A DNA stretch of 64,000 nucleotides from Phreatobacter sp. Lineage in GTDB: Bacteria > Pseudomonadota > Alphaproteobacteria > Rhizobiales > Phreatobacteraceae. The notes under the pieces were generated by a model, which was not told the origin of the DNA, did no database searches, and was given only the letters and a program-made list of their open reading frames with translations. This document shows, piece by piece, positions 16,005 to 24,339 of the stretch (position 1 is the first letter of the stretch; each line of letters begins with the position of its first letter). Position numbers and translations under genes: made by a program. Location: the NCBI RefSeq assembly GCF_027532945.1, contig NZ_JAPZTZ010000003.1, positions 186,001 through 250,000 on the forward strand. Reading direction: 5' to 3'.

Positions 16005-16979
16005 TCAGTTGGTCGGCGTGAAGCCGGACTCGGCGATGACCTGGCGCCACTTCGCGACCTCGCTCTCCAGCTTGGCGCGCGCCTCCGCCGGCCCGCGCTG
16101 GCCGGCCGGATAGGCGGTGGTGCCGAGATCGGCGAAGCGGGCGAGGACCGTCGGGTCCTTCAAGGCAGTCTCCAACGCCGCGGAGAGCCTCTGGACGACG
16201 GGTGCCGGCGTGCCGCGCGGCGCATAGAGCGCATGCCAGACGGTGACCTCGAAATTCGGCAGGCCCGCCTCATGCAGGGTCGGCAGGGTCGGCAATTGCT
16301 CGACCCGCTGCAACGCCGTTACCGCATAGGCCCGGATGCGCCCCCCCTGGATCTGCGGGATGGAGTTCGTTGTCTGGTCGCAAAGCGCGTCGAGCTGGCC
16401 GGCAACGAGGTCGTTCATGGCCGGGCCCGTGCCGCGATAAGGGATCTCGTTGAACTGCACCTTGAGCTGGGCCTGCAGCATCATGTTGCAGAGGTGAGAG
16501 CCAGAGCCGACGCCGGCCGTCCCGAAGCTGATGCCCTTTCCGGTCTTCTTCACGTGGTCGAGGAACTCGGCGATCGTCCTGGTCTCGAGGCCGGTCTTGG
16601 AGACGATGACGAAGGGCCCCTGGTTGATGAGGCCGATCGGCTCGAAGTCCCGGAGCGTGTCGTAGGTCAGGTTCCGGTAGAGCGTCGCGCCGGCCGCGAG
16701 CGCGAGGTGGTGGATGAGCAGGGTGTAGCCATCCGCGGCCGCCCGTGCCGTTCGCGCGGCACCGGTTGTGCCACCCGCGCCGCCGACATTCTCGATCAGG
16801 ACGCTCTGGCCAAGCGTCGCCGACATGGACTGGCCGATGAGGCGTCCGAGAACGTCGGACGGGCCGCCAGCGGCAAAGGGGACGATCAGCGTGATGGGGC
16901 GGTCGGGGAAGGTCTGGGCCATGGTCGGCATGGACAGGCCCATGACGATCGCGGCGGCGCTGGCAAGACGTCCGAGCAT
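16005..16979 (-). CDS. Bug-type substrate-binding protein of a tripartite tricarboxylate transporter
   Basis: A 324-residue periplasmic binding protein with a Sec signal peptide (first ~22 residues, ending TMAQ). The mature start 'FPDRPITLIVPFAAGGPSDVLGR' and 'VENVGGAGGTTGAA' are the hallmarks of the Bug/TctC family that binds carboxylated solutes. No TctA or TctB membrane genes are in the window, so it must share a permease or act as a sensor. It lies 67 bases downstream of the GntR gene on the same strand and divergent from suyAB. By position, its ligand is plausibly sulfolactate or a related C3 acid, since TTT systems have been linked to sulfolactate uptake in other bacteria. Confidence 0.9.
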   Translation of the reverse strand: MLGRLASAAAIVMGLSMPTMAQTFPDRPITLIVPFAAGGPSDVLGRLIGQSMSATLGQSVLIENVGGAGGTTGAARTARAAADGYTLLIHHLALAAGATLYRNLTYDTLRDFEPIGLINQGPFVIVSKTGLETRTIAEFLDHVKKTGKGISFGTAGVGSGSHLCNMMLQAQLKVQFNEIPYRGTGPAMNDLVAGQLDALCDQTTNSIPQIQGGRIRAYAVTALQRVEQLPTLPTLHEAGLPNFEVTVWHALYAPRGTPAPVVQRLSAALETALKDPTVLARFADLGTTAYPAGQRGPAEARAKLESEVAKWRQVIAESGFTPTN

Positions 16980-17046
16980 CGGTTTCCTCCTTGGGGGTGA
17001 CGGTATTGTCGTTGTTCAGCGTCCGGTCCGTCGAGCCGGCGCCATT

Positions 17047-17790
17047 TCATTTGAGATCCGAAGTGTAGTGGAATTGATCTGTCCTGCAGAGGGACACACG
17101 CCATTCCACCCTCTGCCCGTCAAGATCGAGGGCAAGGCGGTCGATGGCGAGAACGGGCGATCCGGCGGCAAGGCCGAGATGGGGGGCGTCGGCGGGCGGA
17201 CACGGCACCGCCTTGAGGCTCTCGCTGGCGCGGGCGATGGTCACGCCGTAGCGCTCGGCATAGAGGCCGTAGAGATTGTTCGGGACAGGATCGCAGGCAG
17301 CGAGGCCAGCGAAGCGGGCTGACGGCACGATGATGCTCTCGCTGACCGCGATGTCGCCACCAAGCGAGCGCAGGCGGTGGATGCGCACGACGCGCGTGCC
17401 GCGCCTGAGGCCGAGCCGCAGTGCGGCGTCAGCGTCGCACCGCTCTTCACCCACCGACAGCACGGTGCTGTCGGGAAAGACGCGGCGTCCGTCGTCGCGC
17501 GACAGCTTGAAGAACTGGAAGAGGATGCGGTCCTCGTCGTGGCTGGCGACGAAGGTACCGACGCCCTGGCGGCGGACGAGGAGGCGCTCGGCCGTCATCT
17601 CGTCGAGCGCCTTGCGCACCGTTCCCTGGCTGACGCCGAGTTCGGCGGCGATCTGCATCTCGGAGGGGATGGCGCGGCCGGCCTGCCATTCGCCGTCGGC
17701 GATGCGGCGCACGAGCCGCTCCTTCACCTGCCGGTAGAGCGGCAGGAAGCCGATGACACGCCCAGGATCCGCCTTGCCTGTGATGGCCAC
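17047..17790 (-). CDS. GntR family transcriptional regulator, HutC subfamily (UTRA domain)
   Basis: A 247-residue repressor-type protein. The N-terminal winged helix (about 15-85) has the classic 'LYRQVKERL...GEWQAGRAIPSEMQIAAELGVSQGTVRKALDEMTAERLLVRRQGVGTFV' layout, interrupted here to keep quotes short: key elements are PSE, LGVSQGTVRKAL and RRQGVGTFV. The C-terminal UTRA effector domain spans about 100-243 ('NNLYGLYAERYGVTIARASESL'). It is divergent from suyA with an 82-base gap. The GTCTT-ATAC-AAGAC palindrome at 17834-17847 overlaps the predicted suyA -10 and is its likely operator. The likely effector is a sulfonate or hydroxyacid intermediate (inference). Confidence 0.9.
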   Translation of the reverse strand: MAITGKADPGRVIGFLPLYRQVKERLVRRIADGEWQAGRAIPSEMQIAAELGVSQGTVRKALDEMTAERLLVRRQGVGTFVASHDEDRILFQFFKLSRDDGRRVFPDSTVLSVGEERCDADAALRLGLRRGTRVVRIHRLRSLGGDIAVSESIIVPSARFAGLAACDPVPNNLYGLYAERYGVTIARASESLKAVPCPPADAPHLGLAAGSPVLAIDRLALDLDGQRVEWRVSLCRTDQFHYTSDLK

Positions 17791-17811
17791 CGCAACCCTC
17801 TCCGCCGACGA

Positions 17812-17840
17812 TTGACAGCCTAGCAGGTCTTATGTCTTAT
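17812..17840 (+). promoter_or_regulatory. Predicted sigma70-type promoter of the suy operon
   Basis: TTGACA (17812-17817) matches the -35 consensus exactly. After a 17-base spacer, TCTTAT (17835-17840) matches the -10 at four of six positions. It lies 32 bases before the suyA start and points toward it. It is partly overlapped by the palindrome at 17834-17847. Confidence 0.55.
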
Positions 17841-17847
17841 ACAAGAC
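17834..17847. promoter_or_regulatory. Palindromic operator candidate for the GntR regulator
   Basis: GTCTTATACAAGAC is an inverted repeat with GTCTT/AAGAC arms and a 4-base centre. HutC-subfamily GntR proteins bind palindromes of the general type GT-N-(A/T-rich)-N-AC, so the match to the divergent gntR product is good. The site covers the suyA -10 region, which fits repression by steric block. A direct repeat of GTCTTAT (17827-17833 and 17834-17840) adds a half-site. Confidence 0.5.
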
Positions 17848-17872
17848 TAATAAGCCTACGGAGGAAACGCCC

Positions 17873-18160
17873 ATGGGGGCCCCGCATCTCTTGGTCCACG
17901 AGAAGAAGGACACGGTCGGCGTCGTGGTGGTGGAGGGCCTGAAGGCCGGCACCGACATGCTGGCGGTCGTCACCCACGACAATTCAGACTTCCGGATCGC
18001 GGCGAAGCAGGACATCCCGATCGGCCACAAGGTGGCACTGAAGGACATCAAAAAGGGCGAGACGATCTGGAAATACGGCCAGGACATCGGCATCGCCAAG
18101 GCCGACATCAAGAAGGGCGAACACGCCCACGTCCACAACATCAAGACCAAGCGCTGGTGA
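17873..18160 (+). CDS. suyA: Sulfolactate sulfo-lyase subunit alpha (UxaA-family SAF domain)
   Basis: A 95-residue SAF-domain protein: 'HDNSDFRIAAKQDIPIGHKVALKDIKKGETIWKYG' (split: HDNSDF..., IPIGHKVAL, IKKGE.IWKYG) is the small-subunit signature of the UxaA/altronate dehydratase superfamily. In SuyAB the small alpha and large beta subunits together split (R)-sulfolactate into pyruvate and sulfite. Altronate or galactarate dehydratase is the alternative from sequence alone. The separate small subunit and the flanking slcC, comC and exporter genes favour SuyA. GGAGG lies nine bases before the ATG. Confidence 0.8.
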   Translation: MGAPHLLVHEKKDTVGVVVVEGLKAGTDMLAVVTHDNSDFRIAAKQDIPIGHKVALKDIKKGETIWKYGQDIGIAKADIKKGEHAHVHNIKTKRW

Positions 18161-18223
18161 GGCCTGGCGCGGAGGCAAACGGCCTCCCCCGCCGCACACA
18201 GAACGCATAACGAGGAAACCGCC

Positions 18224-19507
18224 ATGTCGCTGATGGTCGCCAATTTCGCGCTGGTCGAGCGCAAGCTGAAGAACGTGAAGGGTCGCAAGATCGAGGCCGA
18301 GCCCTTCAAGGCGCCGGTGGTGAAGCGCCCGACGGGCCGCGCACTCGACACGATCTGGGGCTGGCGGCGCGAAAACGGCCGCGTCGGCGTGCGCAACCAC
18401 GTGCTGATCCTGCCCCTCGACGACCTGTCGAACGCCGCTTCCGAGGCGGTGGCGAACAACGTCAAGGGGACGCTGGCGATCCCCCACGCCTATGGCCGCC
18501 TGCAGTTCGGCGCCGATCTTGACCTGCACTTCCGCACGCTGATCGGCACGGGCTCGAACCCCAATGTCGCGGCCGTCGTGGTCATCGGCATCGAGGATCA
18601 GTGGACGAAGATCATCGTCGATGGCATCGCCAAGACCGGCAAGCCGGTGGTCGGCTTCGGCATCGAGGGCCACGGCGACATCGCCACCATCGCCAAGGCG
18701 AGCTACGTGGCCAAGGAATTCATGCAGTGGGCGAGCGAACTCCCGCGCGAGAAGTGCCCGATCACCGACCTCTGGGTTTCCACCAAGTGCGGCGAGAGCG
18801 ACACGACCACGGGCCTGTCCTCCTGCCCCACCGTCGGCGCCATGTATGACAAGCTGATCCCGCGCGGCATCTACGGTGTCTTCGGCGAGACCTCGGAGAT
18901 CACCGGCGCCGAGCATCTGTGCAAGGAGCGCGCGGCGACCAAGGCGGTCGGCGAGCGCTGGTACAAGATGTGGAAGGCCTATCAGGACGATGTCATCGAG
19001 GCCCACAAGACCAACGACCTCTCGGACTCGCAGCCGACCAAGGGCAACATTGCCGGCGGCCTGACGACCATCGAGGAGAAGGCGCTCGGCAACCTCGAGA
19101 AGATTGGCCGCGAGTGCCGCTACATCGACATCCTCGAGCCGGCCGAGGCGCCGGCCAAGGGCCCGGGCCTCTACTTCATGGACACGTCCTCGGCGGCGGC
19201 GGAATGCGTGACGCTGATGGCGGCCGGCGGCTATGTGATCCACACGTTCCCGACCGGCCAGGGCAATGTCATCGGCAACCCGATCGTCCCGGTCATCAAG
19301 ATCTCCGGCAATCCGAAGACCATCCGCACCATGCCCGAGCACATCGACCTCGATGTCTCCGGCATCCTCATGCGGACCATGACCATCCCGCAGGCGGGCG
19401 ACGCGCTGATCGAGAGCATCGTTCGCACCGCCAATGGCCGCCTCACCGCCTCGGAAGCCCTCGGCCATCGCGAATTCTCGATGACCAAGCTCTACCGCTC
19501 GGCGTGA
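18224..19507 (+). CDS. suyB: Sulfolactate sulfo-lyase subunit beta (UxaA-family large subunit)
   Basis: A 427-residue large subunit of the UxaA dehydratase superfamily. Family features are '[16 protein letters not shown]' (about 47-62), '[20 protein letters not shown]' near 190-210 and '[23 protein letters not shown]' near 345-367. The cysteines in KCGESD and SSCPT probably hold the metal centre. With SuyA it desulfonates sulfolactate in the cytosol. A classical altronate dehydratase would usually be one fused polypeptide beside uronate genes, which are absent here. GAGG precedes the ATG. The stop overlaps the GTG of the GNAT gene (GTGA). Confidence 0.82.
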
Positions 19508-20010
19508 GCGCGCGTCTCACAGCGCGCCTCATCCTGACGCCGGTCGGCGAAAGCGATTTCGCCGACCTCTGCGCCCTCACCGCGCATCCGGAAGTCGGCG
19601 GCAAGCTGAAGCACGGGGTGCTGACGCATGAGCAGACGCGGGCCCAACTCGACGATTACCGCGAGACCTGGGCGCGCGAGGGCTGGGGTGTCTTCGTCCT
19701 GAGACGGCGCGACTCGGGCGCCTTCGTCGGCATCGCGGGGCTCTGGGACCATGATGCGGGGATCGGTGTGGCCATGCGCTATGCGGTGATGCCGGAGCAG
19801 CGGGGCGCTGGCTTCACCAAGGAAGCCGCAAAATCCATCCTCGAATTTGCGCAAGAGCAGAACATTCATGCTGTCATGGCGGTGACGCGCGACAACAATC
19901 TTGTCTCGCAGCGCATTCTGGTCGATCTGGGATTCCAGCTGCGGGAGATCCGTGAGGTGGCTCACGGGAGGCTCGTGGTGTTCCAGCAGGCGACGGAGCC
20001 TTCCCCATGA
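19504..20010 (+). CDS. GNAT family N-acetyltransferase
   Basis: A 168-residue acetyltransferase of the RimJ/RimL-like group. The core reads '[20 protein letters not shown]' at the start and '[23 protein letters not shown]' for the acetyl-CoA loop, followed by '[18 protein letters not shown]', the usual end of the fold. The acetyl-CoA loop is RGAGFT, near the Q/RxxGxG/A motif. The GTG start at 19504 overlaps the suyB stop, and the gene's own stop overlaps the next ATG, so it is coupled on both sides. An acetyltransferase is not part of known sulfolactate pathways; its substrate is unknown. Confidence 0.85.
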
Positions 20011-21044
20011 CCCTGTCCGCGACGGCGACCGCGCGTCCGCTCATGCCGGGCATGGCCCTCGCCTGCGCCGTCGCCGTGGCGGCGGTCTTCGCCGAACCGG
20101 CCCTGAAGCAGGCGACGGGGGGACGCATCGCCCTCCCCGGCATGGTCATCGCCCTCATCATCGGCATCATGCTGCACGGCCTCGCCGCGCGCCCGCTCTT
20201 CGAACCCGGCCTCACCTTCGCGGTGAAGAAGCTGCTGCGCTGGGCCATCGGCCTGCTGGGGCTTCGCATCGCCTTTGGCGACATCCTCGGTCTCGGGCTC
20301 GGCACGCTGGTCGTCGTCGGCGGCTCCATGGCCGCGACGATTGCTGCGGGCATCTGGCTCGCCCGTCGCTTCGGCGTGGCGGATGGCTATGGCGCCCTCG
20401 CCGGCGCCTCGACGGCGGTCTGCGGCGCCTCCGCGGCGCTCGCCACCACCACCGTCCTGCCGAACTATCCGCAGAAGGCCGCCGACACCGCCTTTACGGT
20501 GGTCGCCGCCAATGCGCTCTCGACCCTTGTGATGCTTGCCTATCCGCCGCTCGCGGTGCTCCTCGGCTTCGACGCCACCAAGACCGGCATCCTGCTGGGC
20601 GCCACCATCCACGACATGGCGCAGGTGGTGGGCGCGGGCTACGCCGTCTCCGAGCCGGTCGGCAACACCGCCGTCGTGGTGAAACTCTTCCGCGTCTTCC
20701 TGCTGCTGCCGGTGGTGCTGGCGATCGGCTGGTGGTTCCTGCGCCAGGGCGAACAGGCGCAAGAGGCCCGCGTGCCCGTGCCGGTCTTTGCCCTCGTCTT
20801 CCTGGCGCTGGTGGTGGTGAACTCGATCCTGCCGGGTATCCCGTCGCTCGCGGGCTCCTACGCCCTGGTCAAGGGTTGGCTCGTCTCCGTCTCCAATGCC
20901 GGCCTGCTCATCGCCATCGCGGCGCTCGGGCTCGGCACCTCGATCACCGCCATCCTCACCATCGGCTGGCGACACGTCGTCATCTTCCTCGGCACCACGC
21001 TCGTGATCCTCGGGCTGGTGGTCGGGGGCATCCTCATCACCTGA
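20007..21044 (+). CDS. YeiH/TauZ-type putative sulfate/sulfite exporter (UPF0324)
   Basis: A 345-residue membrane protein with about ten helices of the putative sulfate exporter family. Diagnostic stretches are 'LPGMVIALIIGIMLHGL', 'LLRWAIGLLGLRIAFGDI', 'GASTAVCGASAALAT' and 'GATIHDMAQVVGAGYAVS'. In taurine and sulfolactate clusters such proteins (TauZ, SuyZ) sit beside the desulfonating enzyme and are thought to export sulfite or sulfate. The same role is inferred here from its place between suyAB and slcC-comC. Transport itself is not shown by sequence. ATG 20007 overlaps the GNAT stop. Confidence 0.85.
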   Translation: MTLSATATARPLMPGMALACAVAVAAVFAEPALKQATGGRIALPGMVIALIIGIMLHGLAARPLFEPGLTFAVKKLLRWAIGLLGLRIAFGDILGLGLGTLVVVGGSMAATIAAGIWLARRFGVADGYGALAGASTAVCGASAALATTTVLPNYPQKAADTAFTVVAANALSTLVMLAYPPLAVLLGFDATKTGILLGATIHDMAQVVGAGYAVSEPVGNTAVVVKLFRVFLLLPVVLAIGWWFLRQGEQAQEARVPVPVFALVFLALVVVNSILPGIPSLAGSYALVKGWLVSVSNAGLLIAIAALGLGTSITAILTIGWRHVVIFLGTTLVILGLVVGGILIT

Positions 21045-21053
21045 AGGCCCGGC

Positions 21054-21989
21054 ATGACCGACATCGTCATCTCTGAATTCATGGACGAGGCGGCGGTCGA
21101 GGACCTCAGGCGCGATTTTTCCGTCACCTATGACAAGGGGCTGGTGGACCGGCCAGACGAGCTTGCGCGCCTGATTGCCGGCGCGCGGGCGCTGATCGTG
21201 CGCAACCGCACGCAGGTGCGCGGCGCGCTGCTGGCGGCGGGCGCGAAGCTCGAGGCCATCGGCCGGCTCGGCGTCGGGCTCGACAATATCGATGTCGAGG
21301 CTGCCAAGGCGCGCGGCATTGCCGTGCTGCCGGCGACCGGGGCCAACGACGTCTCCGTCGCGGAATGGGCGGTGACGACGATCATGGTCCTGCTGCGCGG
21401 CGCCTATTACGCCACCGCCGACGTTGCCGCCGGCACCTGGCCGCGCGAACGGCTGATGGGCCGCGAGATCTCGGGCAAGGTGCTCGGGCTCGTCGGCTTC
21501 GGCGCCATCGCGCGCGAGACGGCCGTGCGCGCCAAGGCGCTCGGCATGGACATCATCGCCGCCGATCCCTTCGTTGCCGCCGACGACCCCGCCTGGGGAC
21601 GGATCGGCGCGCGCTCCGTGAGCCTCGACGCGCTGGTGGCCGAGGCCGATGCGGTGAGCCTGCACGTGCCGCTGACACCCGAGACCCGCAACCTCATCGA
21701 TGCCAGGCGCCTCGCCACCATGAAGCCCGGCGCGGTGCTGGTGAACGCCGCCCGCGGCGGCGTCGTGGACGAGGCCGCGCTCGCCGCGGCTCTCCGCGCC
21801 GGGACCATTGCCGGGGCAGCCCTCGATGTCTTCGATGTGGAGCCGCTGAAGGCGGGATCACCGCTCACCGGCTGCCCCAACCTCATCCTCACCCCCCACA
21901 TTGCCGGGGTGACGGTGGAGAGCAATGTGCGTGTCTCCTCGGTCACCGCCGCCAATGTCCGCCGCGTGCTCGAGGAGCGCCGTTCATGA
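21054..21989 (+). CDS. slcC: Probable (S)-sulfolactate dehydrogenase, D-2-hydroxyacid dehydrogenase family
   Basis: A 311-residue NAD-dependent 2-hydroxyacid dehydrogenase. The N-terminus 'VISEFMDEAAVEDL' and the C-terminal 'PHIAGVTVESNVRVS' resemble SlcC of sulfolactate degraders as I recall it. The Rossmann loop is 'GLVGFGAIARE' (about 143-153). The catalytic Arg is in 'NAARGGVVDE', the Glu in 'DVFDVEP' and the His in 'LTPHIAG'. SlcC oxidises (S)-sulfolactate to sulfopyruvate, which ComC then reduces to the (R) form for SuyAB. A phosphoglycerate-dehydrogenase-like role is the alternative on sequence alone. The stop overlaps the comC start. Confidence 0.8.
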   Translation: MTDIVISEFMDEAAVEDLRRDFSVTYDKGLVDRPDELARLIAGARALIVRNRTQVRGALLAAGAKLEAIGRLGVGLDNIDVEAAKARGIAVLPATGANDVSVAEWAVTTIMVLLRGAYYATADVAAGTWPRERLMGREISGKVLGLVGFGAIARETAVRAKALGMDIIAADPFVAADDPAWGRIGARSVSLDALVAEADAVSLHVPLTPETRNLIDARRLATMKPGAVLVNAARGGVVDEAALAAALRAGTIAGAALDVFDVEPLKAGSPLTGCPNLILTPHIAGVTVESNVRVSSVTAANVRRVLEERRS

Positions 21990-22978
21990 GCAAGGTCACG
22001 CTGGAGGCGGCGCGCGCCTGGGTCGCCGGGATCTTCATCGGGAACGGCGCCCGTGCCGAAGCCGCCCGTTCGGTCGCGGCGGCGCTGGTGCGCGCCGAGG
22101 CGGAGGGGCTGAAGGGTCACGGCCTGTCGCGCATCCCGACCTATCTGACCATGCTCACGAGCGGCAAGATTGATGGCGCCGCTGTGCCGACCACCAAGCG
22201 CGTGCGCGCCGCGACGCTCGCCATCGATGCCGCCAATGGTTTCGCCTATCCGGCCGTTGACCTCGCGCTGGCCGAACTCCCGGCCATTGCGGCGGAGACC
22301 GGCATCGCCGCAGCGACCATCGCCCGCTCCAACCATGCCGGCGCCCTCGGCGCGCATGTCGAGGCTCTGGCCGACCGCGGCCTCATCGCCCTGTTCTTCG
22401 CCAACACGCCCGAGGCCATCGCGCCGGCGGGCGGCACGAAAGCTGTCTACGGCACCAACCCCATCGCCTTCGCCTGCCCCCTGCCCGGTCGCCCCGCGAT
22501 CGTGGTTGATCTGGCGCTGTCCACGGTTGCGCGCGGCAACATCGTCGCCGCCAACCAGAAGGGCGAGGCGATCCCGGAGGGCTGGGCGCTCGATGCCGAG
22601 GGCCAGCCGACGACGGATGCCGCCAAGGCGCTGAAGGGCACGATGGTGGCGCTGGGCGGGCCGAAGGGGACGGCCCTCGCCCTCATGGTCGAGGTGCTGG
22701 CGGCAGCCCTCACCGGCGCCCATCTCGCCTTCGAGGCGTCCTCCTTCCTCGACGACAAGGGCCCGCCGCCCGGCACCGGCCAGACCATTCTGGCCATCGA
22801 CCCGGCGGGCTTCGGCCATGCCGGCTTCGGCGAGCGGATCACCACGCTTGCCGCCGCCATCGAGGCGCAGGCCGGCGCGCGCCTTCCCGGCCAGCGTCGC
22901 CTGGCGCTGCGGCAGAAAGCCGAGGCCGAGGGGATCGCGCTGCCCGCCGATCTCGTCGCCAAGCACGGACCGGCCTGA
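21986..22978 (+). CDS. comC: Probable (R)-sulfolactate dehydrogenase, malate/L-sulfolactate dehydrogenase family
   Basis: A 330-residue member of the Ldh/MDH-2 family, a fold unrelated to the classical lactate dehydrogenases. Characteristic stretches are 'RAEAEGLKGHGLSRIPTYL', 'IARSNHAGALGAHVE', with the catalytic His in SNHAG, and 'YGTNPIAFACPLPG'. ComC-type enzymes interconvert sulfopyruvate and (R)-sulfolactate with NAD(P)H. Together with SlcC it would act as a two-enzyme racemase feeding SuyAB. Malate or ureidoglycolate dehydrogenase activities exist in the same family, but the context favours ComC. The ATG overlaps the slcC stop by four bases. Confidence 0.82.
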   Translation: MSKVTLEAARAWVAGIFIGNGARAEAARSVAAALVRAEAEGLKGHGLSRIPTYLTMLTSGKIDGAAVPTTKRVRAATLAIDAANGFAYPAVDLALAELPAIAAETGIAAATIARSNHAGALGAHVEALADRGLIALFFANTPEAIAPAGGTKAVYGTNPIAFACPLPGRPAIVVDLALSTVARGNIVAANQKGEAIPEGWALDAEGQPTTDAAKALKGTMVALGGPKGTALALMVEVLAAALTGAHLAFEASSFLDDKGPPPGTGQTILAIDPAGFGHAGFGERITTLAAAIEAQAGARLPGQRRLALRQKAEAEGIALPADLVAKHGPA

Positions 22979-23091
22979 GGCTCCTCGGCGTTCCGCGCGA
23001 CAGCTCCGCCGCCGCGCGGCTTGCGCGTCTCGCGCCCTGTCGTTACCGGAGGGGCACATCCTTCTCACCGCCGACCGGCAGAGGACATTCC

Positions 23092-24339
23092 ATGAGCGTC
23101 GCCAACGGCCGTACCCTGCTCGCCATTCCCGGCCCGACCAATGTTCCCGACCGCGTGCTGCAGGCGATGATGCGGCCGGCCGAGGAGATCTATTCCGGCC
23201 CGATGGTGGCGCTGACGGACAGCCTCCTGGCCGACCTCAAGACCATCTTCGGCACCAAGGCGCGGACCTATATCTACGCCGCCAACGGCCATGGCGGCTG
23301 GGAGGCAGCGATCTCCAACGTGCTGTCGCGCGGCGACAAGGTGCTGGTGCTGGCGAGCGGCCGCTTCGCCATCGGCTGGGGCCAGATGGCCGCGTTCATG
23401 GGCGCCGATGTCGAGGTGATGGAAGGCTCCTGGCGGGCGGCCATCGACCCGGCCCAGGTCGAGGAGCGGCTGCGTCGCGACACCTCCCATTCCATCAAGG
23501 CGATCCTGATGGTGCAGATCGACACGGCCTCGGGCGTCGTCAACGACGTCAAGGCCGTGCGCCGCGCTATCGACGCGGCAGGCCATCCCGCCCTGTTCTT
23601 GGTGGATGGCGTCGCCTCGCTCGCCTGCATGCCCTTCGCCATGGACGAGTGGGGCATCGACGTCGCCATGTCGGCCTCGCAGAAGGGGCTGATGACGCCG
23701 CCCGGCCTCGCCTTCGTCGCCGCCAACGACAAGGCGCACAAGGCGCACGAGACCGCTGATATGAAGACGCTCTACTGGGACTGGACGGCGCGCCAGGGCA
23801 AGGAGCACTACATGAAATATTGCGGCACGCCGCCGGAGCACCTGCTCTTCGCGCTGCGCGCCGCGCTCGACATGATCATGGAAGAGGGCCTGCCCGCCGT
23901 GTGGAAGCGCCATGCGCTCCTCGCCGAGGCGACCCATGCCGCCATCGGCAAGTGGGCCGAGGGCCAGGTTATCGCCTGCAACATCCTCGAGCCGTCGCAG
24001 CGCTCAGCCTCGGTGACACCGGTCCTGGTGCAGGGGGCCGATGCCGAGGCGATTGCCACCTACACCCAGCGCATCTGCGGCGTGACGCTCGGCTCGGCCA
24101 TCGGCGAGCTCTCGGGCCGGGCCTTCCGCATCGCCCATATGGGCCACACCAATGCGCCGATGGTGCTCGGTACGCTCTCGGCGGTGGAGATGGCGCTCCA
24201 GGCGCTGAACATTCCCCACGGCTCCGGCGGCGTCGCGGCGGCGGTCGCGAGCCTCGCCAAGGGGGCCGGCCTGCCGGGCAAGCCGGCGGATCACGAGGTG
24301 CCGGAGAACGACCTGGCGCTCGCCACCGCTCCCGCCTGA
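23092..24339 (+). CDS. Class V aminotransferase, alanine/serine-glyoxylate aminotransferase family
   Basis: A 415-residue PLP enzyme. 'AIPGPTNVPDRVLQAMMRP' at the start and 'ANGHGGWEAAISNVL' are the SGAT/AGXT signatures. PLP binds Lys198 in 'SASQKGLMTPPG', after 'FLVDGVASLA' with the cofactor Asp172. Family members use glyoxylate or pyruvate as acceptors and serine or alanine as donors. It follows comC after 113 bases, as the last gene of the suy direction. A cysteate:2-oxoacid transaminase making sulfopyruvate would complete the pathway, but this is inference; serine-glyoxylate aminotransferase is the conservative call. Its stop lies in the loop of a 10-bp hairpin. Confidence 0.88.
   Translation: MSVANGRTLLAIPGPTNVPDRVLQAMMRPAEEIYSGPMVALTDSLLADLKTIFGTKARTYIYAANGHGGWEAAISNVLSRGDKVLVLASGRFAIGWGQMAAFMGADVEVMEGSWRAAIDPAQVEERLRRDTSHSIKAILMVQIDTASGVVNDVKAVRRAIDAAGHPALFLVDGVASLACMPFAMDEWGIDVAMSASQKGLMTPPGLAFVAANDKAHKAHETADMKTLYWDWTARQGKEHYMKYCGTPPEHLLFALRAALDMIMEEGLPAVWKRHALLAEATHAAIGKWAEGQVIACNILEPSQRSASVTPVLVQGADAEAIATYTQRICGVTLGSAIGELSGRAFRIAHMGHTNAPMVLGTLSAVEMALQALNIPHGSGGVAAAVASLAKGAGLPGKPADHEVPENDLALATAPA

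Follow-up and report, generated by a model that had tools for sequence, protein, structure and literature searches.

Phreatobacter is a genus known from fresh water and from ultrapure water (excerpt of PMC6742797). Can one of its bacteria use 3-sulfolactate, and which genes would serve that use? The window, by which we mean the whole 64,000-nucleotide stretch of DNA analysed here, is part of contig C26 of a 4.13-Mb draft genome of Phreatobacter sp. A sequence-only reading had placed in it, at 16005..24339, nine genes forming what it called a complete locus for the desulfonation of sulfolactate or, possibly, cysteate. All nine are present at these coordinates and each scores above the Pfam cut-off for its expected family, the narrowest margin being that of the SAF protein (26.9 against a cut-off of 21 bits). 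Judged by gene content, protein families, synteny and operator conservation, the operon suyA-suyB-GNAT-YeiH-slcC-comC very probably encodes a pathway for sulfolactate use. A literature search returned no paper containing both words Phreatobacter and sulfolactate.

Results

The genes and the predicted operator are arranged as follows.

16005..16979, minus strand: Bug/TctC-type periplasmic binding protein (Pfam PF03401, 185.9 bits)
17047..17790, minus strand: GntR/HutC-type (UTRA) regulator, divergent from suyA (Pfam GntR and UTRA)
17834..17847, unstranded: predicted operator GTCTTATACAAGAC, between the regulator and suyA
17873..18160, plus strand: suyA, predicted small SAF subunit of sulfolactate sulfo-lyase, 95 residues (PF08666 above cut-off)
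18224..19507, plus strand: suyB, predicted large subunit of sulfolactate sulfo-lyase, 427 residues (PF04295 and PF20629)
19504..20010, plus strand: GNAT acetyltransferase (PF13302)
20007..21044, plus strand: YeiH-type putative sulfite/sulfate exporter (PF03601, 193.6 bits)
21054..21989, plus strand: SlcC-like putative (S)-sulfolactate dehydrogenase, a SerA-like 2-hydroxyacid dehydrogenase (TIGR01327, 292.2 bits, cut-off 454)
21986..22978, plus strand: ComC-like putative (R)-sulfolactate dehydrogenase, Ldh_2 family (PF02615, 321.6 bits)
23092..24339, plus strand: class-V aminotransferase, a neighbour judged to lie outside the pathway (family match and distribution across Phreatobacter)

The starts of the GNAT gene and of comC were picked from the sequence inside longer, mechanically called open reading frames that begin further upstream. 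With the starts so chosen, suyB and GNAT, GNAT and YeiH, and slcC and comC each overlap by 4 nucleotides, while suyA and suyB are separated by 63 nucleotides, YeiH and slcC by 9, and comC and the aminotransferase gene by 113. Because of these overlaps and the 9-nucleotide gap, the stretch from suyA to comC reads as one operon. In a simple scan, the gap that separates comC from the aminotransferase gene showed no terminator-like site, and read-through into that gene may therefore occur.

The sulfo-lyase

SuyB is 79.5% identical to a protein of Paracoccus versutus and 64% identical to the protein of the hps-suy cluster of Cupriavidus pinatubonensis. Matches were found in 316 plasmid records, of which the top 13 reach 60–85% identity and the next stands at 38%, a value that UxaA-type relatives do not exceed; one of the 13, from C. 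pinatubonensis, sits in the hps-suyAB gene order published in PMC11382572 (excerpt). SuyB-clade matches occur in 69 of the 297 genomes of the order, 65 of them near full-length at 74–100% identity (this genome included) and four of them fragments. Outside this strong group lie one copy of 68% in genome G246 and others that, among the matches listed, are at about 37% or less. Across the phylum, 15 of 398 genomes, again counting this one, hold a match at E ≤ 1e-100. The nearest relatives, for which the sequence-only reading had proposed a search, are proteins of the SuyB clade and not altronate or galactarate dehydratases. SuyB is 31% identical to the genome's own UxaA-type protein, and its score against the NCBIfam galactarate dehydratase model TIGR03248 is 125.4 bits, below the cut-off of 730.85.

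Four cysteines are conserved in UxaA/GarD enzymes, sulfolactate sulfo-lyase excepted (excerpt of PMC6336799). When these positions were assigned by spacing, with the genome's own UxaA-type protein as reference, three of the four cysteines proved replaced or missing and one kept in all seven distinct SuyB sequences aligned. SuyAB also has the two-subunit build of a separate small SAF protein and a large GD_AH protein. Together, clade membership and cysteine signature support the assignment of SuyAB as a sulfolactate sulfo-lyase, with sulfite as its predicted product.

Two sets of suy loci were compared. One holds 44 neighbourhoods, namely 6 plasmids and 38 stretches, the latter chosen by strong SuyB matches and not at random; the other, the named set, consists of the best 80 among 590 confirmed relatives, ranked by nearness to a Halomonadaceae query. 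This named set is mostly beta- and gammaproteobacterial and leaves out Chromohalobacter salexigens and Paracoccus pantotrophus. Many loci stop at contig ends, so that absences are upper bounds. A SuyA homolog lies just upstream of suyB in 44 of 44 and 80 of 80 loci.

Two further features of suyAB were seen. An N-terminal extension of about 41 residues (18224–18346) is present in SuyB of Phreatobacter and a few relatives, and most other SuyB matches do not align there. The 68% copy in G246 belongs to a second, more distant suyAB (L045), with no slcC, comC or regulator homolog in the 20 kb fetched.

The dehydrogenases

SlcC homologs occur in the fetched stretch of 32 of the 44 neighbourhoods and ComC homologs in that of 35. 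The corresponding counts in the named set are 40 and 49 of 80; identity is only 34–36% for four of these SlcC matches and two of these ComC matches, which may be other enzymes. Neighbourhoods with suyA, suyB, slcC and comC recur in named organisms such as Methylobacterium radiotolerans, Litchfieldella qijiaojingensis, Halomonas urmiana and Rhodococcus koreensis, and the suy-linked SlcC homologs of two Halomonadaceae are 58–59% identical. In SlcC-like proteins from suyAB neighbourhoods the motif VRNRTQV recurs, exactly or in a close form, and two remoter relatives (36–38%) differ from it. GRLGVGLDNID is found in all printed suy-linked SlcC-like proteins except those of L040 and L165. On plasmid pMRAD01 of M. 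radiotolerans (L038) the order is suyA-suyB-dctA-slcC-comC, dctA standing for a DctA-type carrier gene.

The best NCBIfam match of our SlcC is the phosphoglycerate dehydrogenase model TIGR01327, in keeping with a SerA-like enzyme; the SlcC of C. salexigens is likewise placed within or beside SerA, its placement being inconsistent among trees (excerpt of PMC6303947). ComC belongs to the Ldh_2 family and its relatives in the PDB include the L-sulfolactate dehydrogenase 2x06 (132.5 bits, ranked behind three others). Since its score against the L-sulfolactate dehydrogenase model NF040650 is 186.4 bits, under the cut-off of 500, the support for ComC is at the level of family and synteny.

The regulator and its predicted operator

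A homolog of the regulator is present in the fetched stretch of 26 of the 39 suy loci of the order, our own included; 23 of these are divergent from suyA and 8 of the 26 belong to Phreatobacter. Its presence goes together with that of a palindrome, GTCTTATAYAAGAC, before suyA: an operator within 2 mismatches lies in the 250 nucleotides before suyA in 26 of 26 loci with the regulator and in 1 of 13 without it. In our genome the site at 17834–17847 is the single exact match, and three other places match at 2 mismatches. With up to 2 mismatches allowed, the search found 2 matches (both strands of the same site), where shuffled windows give 0.02. We regard this palindrome as a predicted operator, at which the divergent HutC-type GntR protein probably controls the operon as a repressor. 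Sites resembling GTCAT..ATATGAC were seen by eye in a few named loci. The idea that the hps genes described below are under the same regulator was rejected, as the genome has no second exact copy of the palindrome.

Supply of sulfonate and fate of sulfite

The Bug gene stands beside the regulator in all seven Phreatobacter loci of this type, ours among them, and its product is possibly a sulfolactate binder. About 157 kb from the suy operon, on the same contig, there is an hpsNOP-type locus (genes called there by a simple codon-bias script). It comprises homologs of HpsN, HpsO and HpsP together with ABC transporter genes and genes for an SsuA-like binding protein and a LacI-type regulator, and would serve the use of dihydroxypropanesulfonate (DHPS). 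Identity to the C. pinatubonensis homologs is 71% for HpsN (HN-2), 61% for HpsO and 44% for HpsP, and HpsN scores 697.5 bits against the sulfopropanediol dehydrogenase 8v35, a solved structure. HpsN contains GRYAH, which agrees with the HpsN motif G-R-Y-A/S-H (excerpt of PMC11382572), and hpsO and hpsP adjoin it.

Among the 297 genomes, 39 have both SuyB and HpsN, 30 SuyB only, 19 HpsN only and 209 neither, counts that are uncorrected for kinship and rest on an HpsN cut of about 1e-140, by which 13 of the 71 listed HpsN genomes were dropped. Four of the 12 Phreatobacter genomes have HpsN (our own, G065, G101 and G263), all of them with suyB, and the three genomes lacking suyB lack HpsN as well. 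In G101 the hps run lies next to another suy cluster, in convergent orientation; this second type of suy cluster (L050) has hpsNOP facing comC-slcC-YeiH-suyB-suyA. In G263 (L229), hpsN is on the same contig as a YeiH gene and a fragment of suyB. A DegT/DnrJ-type aminotransferase gene lies inside the ABC transporter run of our hps locus (L220:7255-8511), and G101 has a look-alike in the same place (L050:582-1865, by eye).

As to sulfite, a SorA-like protein and a small SorB-like protein are encoded at 72 kb of contig C26 and a second SorA-like protein at 304 kb. The first has as its best PDB relative the sulfite:cytochrome c oxidoreductase 2blf (191 bits). Because the two score 241.4 and 251.8 bits against NF052245, whose cut-off is 600, we label them SorA-like only; the SorB-like protein is also below its curated cut-off. 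A third Oxidored_molyb protein is encoded on contig C11. A route through Xsc was rejected: no protein exceeds the Xsc cut-off (best 272 of 676.4 bits), and the model gives such sub-cut-off matches in all 14 control genomes too.

The GNAT-YeiH pair

The GNAT gene stands beside suyB in 6 of the 44 neighbourhoods, all of them Phreatobacter, and in none of the 80 named loci. We judge it to be a genus-specific member of the operon, and the gene order, which the sequence-only reading did not recall from elsewhere, to be a genus-specific arrangement. The two genes overlap by 4 nucleotides in 9 of 11 genomes as called; in the other two, the caller chose another start. YeiH scores 103.3 bits against TIGR00698, short of the subfamily cut-off of 232.6, although it exceeds that of the Pfam family.

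A run of MFS-GNAT-YeiH-aminotransferase-CurA occupies the same chromosomal site in G019, G227 and G160, which are without suyB, and a second place in G101. DNA matching the window breaks off and resumes at about 15922/19525 and 21020/23075, flanking Bug-GntR-suyA-suyB and slcC-comC, respectively. In a tree built from three flanking proteins, G019, G227, G160 and G101 form a group inside suy-bearing lineages, and 7 of the tree's 8 inner branches have good support; the GNAT tree does not contradict this but has less support (3 of 8 branches), and the YeiH tree is mostly unresolved (2 of 9 inner branches starred). These trees are midpoint-rooted and have no outgroup. Since the suy-less clade is nested among suy-bearing lineages under midpoint rooting, it is likelier that the suyAB and slcC-comC blocks were lost on both sides of a GNAT-YeiH pair that was kept, whereas a root on the suy-less branch would reverse this order. 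That the suy-less GNAT-YeiH-aminotransferase run is the older state, before suy insertion, was an idea dropped after the flanking-protein tree.

Discussion

The model we infer, covering substrate, stereochemistry, mode of regulation, direction of export and the roles of the GNAT and Bug proteins, would enable this Phreatobacter to use 3-sulfolactate through the six-gene operon. SlcC and ComC would interconvert (S)- and (R)-sulfolactate via sulfopyruvate, and SuyAB would cleave sulfite from (R)-sulfolactate, leaving pyruvate. The YeiH-type protein may export sulfite or sulfate, and oxidation of sulfite by a SorA-like enzyme encoded on the same contig is possible. The divergent GntR protein would control the operon at the palindrome, probably by repression. 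Sulfolactate itself would come from outside or from DHPS through the hpsNOP-type locus. The core of the sequence-only reading, that both enantiomers are converted to pyruvate and sulfite beside a YeiH-type exporter, thus finds support in homology and synteny.

Several observations weigh against this model. The matches of SlcC, ComC, YeiH and SorA are all below curated NCBIfam cut-offs. At up to 2 mismatches a search of the genome yields as many matches (4 and 1) as the control search with the reversed pattern (4 and 1), and an operator within 2 mismatches was found in 2 of the 80 named loci, though 60 of the 80 have a regulator homolog in the fetched stretch. HpsN is absent from five of the eight other suy-bearing Phreatobacter (G132, G184, G207, G246 and G279), so DHPS is not a general source of sulfolactate. 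Relatives without suy genes keep GNAT and YeiH, and the tie of this pair to sulfolactate is therefore not exclusive. It may be, although we think it rather unlikely, that GNAT-YeiH is a stand-alone module for the export of sulfite or a related anion, with GNAT as a true partner, which joined the Phreatobacter operon and outlived the loss of suyAB and slcC-comC. Finally, the contig has no TctA gene (TctB was not searched for), and for uptake the earlier description of the locus as complete was too strong. Other contigs carry three TctA genes, one of which may be used by the Bug protein.

Could the operon serve another substrate or another end? SuyAB shares a superfamily with sugar-acid dehydratases, the sole PDB relative found for SuyB is the galactarate dehydratase 6u7l (118 bits), and a split L-fuconate dehydratase is mentioned in an excerpt of PMC6336799, so one might read the pair as an altronate, galactarate or split L-fuconate type of dehydratase, with the dehydrogenases serving sugar-acid breakdown. 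The distance from the genome's own UxaA-type protein and the three altered signature cysteines argue against this, as does the gap in SuyB identity across the 297 genomes and 316 plasmid records, a comparison that left out the split L-fuconate enzyme. The neighbours of suyB in named records, namely hpsN, hpsO, a sulfate exporter and sulfite oxidase, also speak against a dehydratase, and we consider this reading the least probable of those weighed here. Scarcely more probable, in our estimate, is an operon that mainly clears internally made sulfopyruvate or sulfolactate and does not serve growth. The presence of an exporter and the lack of a complete uptake system found at the locus would suit such a role, whereas a dedicated regulator with a conserved operator, the hps locus with its SsuA-like binding protein and ABC genes, and the SorA-like genes on the contig point the other way.

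A role in the use of L-cysteate is compatible with the sulfolactate pathway and somewhat less remote than either of these, yet still improbable. Here the end transaminase would yield sulfopyruvate, ComC and SlcC would yield sulfolactate, and SuyAB would cleave it. That Paracoccus pantotrophus uses cysteate through sulfolactate sulfo-lyase is stated in the title of reference 38 of PMC6336799. The end transaminase and the likelier serine-glyoxylate enzyme, encoded on contig C34, are separate paralogs (265.8 and 364.9 bits, respectively, against 6pk1), the absence of a terminator-like site after comC would allow it to be read with the operon, and a general transaminase could still feed cysteate in. 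The distribution of the end transaminase speaks against membership in the pathway. All 12 Phreatobacter genomes have this class-V aminotransferase (one of them a fragment of it), among them the three without a SuyB-clade match (G019, G160 and G227); it lies away from the suy genes in G065, G184 and G279 and was found in none of the 80 named suy loci. As a pathway member the transaminase was therefore rejected, not being confined to suy-bearing genomes, and we judge it a neighbour because of its genus-wide presence, its separate location in some genomes and its weaker serine-glyoxylate match than the C34 paralog. The sequence-only reading had listed this transaminase at the end of the locus and allowed for cysteate; the distribution does not tie the gene to the pathway, and nothing found points to cysteate, CuyA not having been searched for.

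The SuyAB-SlcC-ComC pathway was reportedly first described in Chromohalobacter salexigens. Paracoccus wurundjeri has homologs of all four, and there suyA, suyB, slcC and comC have consecutive locus numbers and all four proteins increased on sulfofucose (excerpt of PMC12421959); in Phreatobacter, slcC is separated from suyB by the GNAT and YeiH genes. Litchfieldella and Halomonas urmiana have other genes at this position, a Bug gene and (by eye) TctA- and TctB-looking ones. Plasmid pTAV3 of P. versutus (P. pantotrophus type) likewise has a divergent GntR gene, suyA, suyB and an exporter gene, with an operator within 1 mismatch, but genes for pyruvate carboxylase, transhydrogenase and sulfite oxidase come next and no slcC or comC homolog is found in the fetched stretch. 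In C. pinatubonensis, HpsN yields (R)-sulfolactate and is encoded in a cluster with suyAB (excerpt of PMC11382572), whereas in our Phreatobacter genome a distance of about 157 kb separates hps from suy, ABC transporter genes and an SsuA-like binding protein replace the MFS carrier, and the hps run includes the DegT-type aminotransferase gene.

The pathway type is already known, and what this case adds is the genus-specific gene order, the operator and the puzzle of the GNAT-YeiH pair. Within this order the palindrome can serve as a marker for suy operons, and with the GntR protein it makes up a regulator-operator pair that can be put to the test. More broadly, the findings make Phreatobacter a genus with likely use of sulfolactate and, in some strains, of DHPS.

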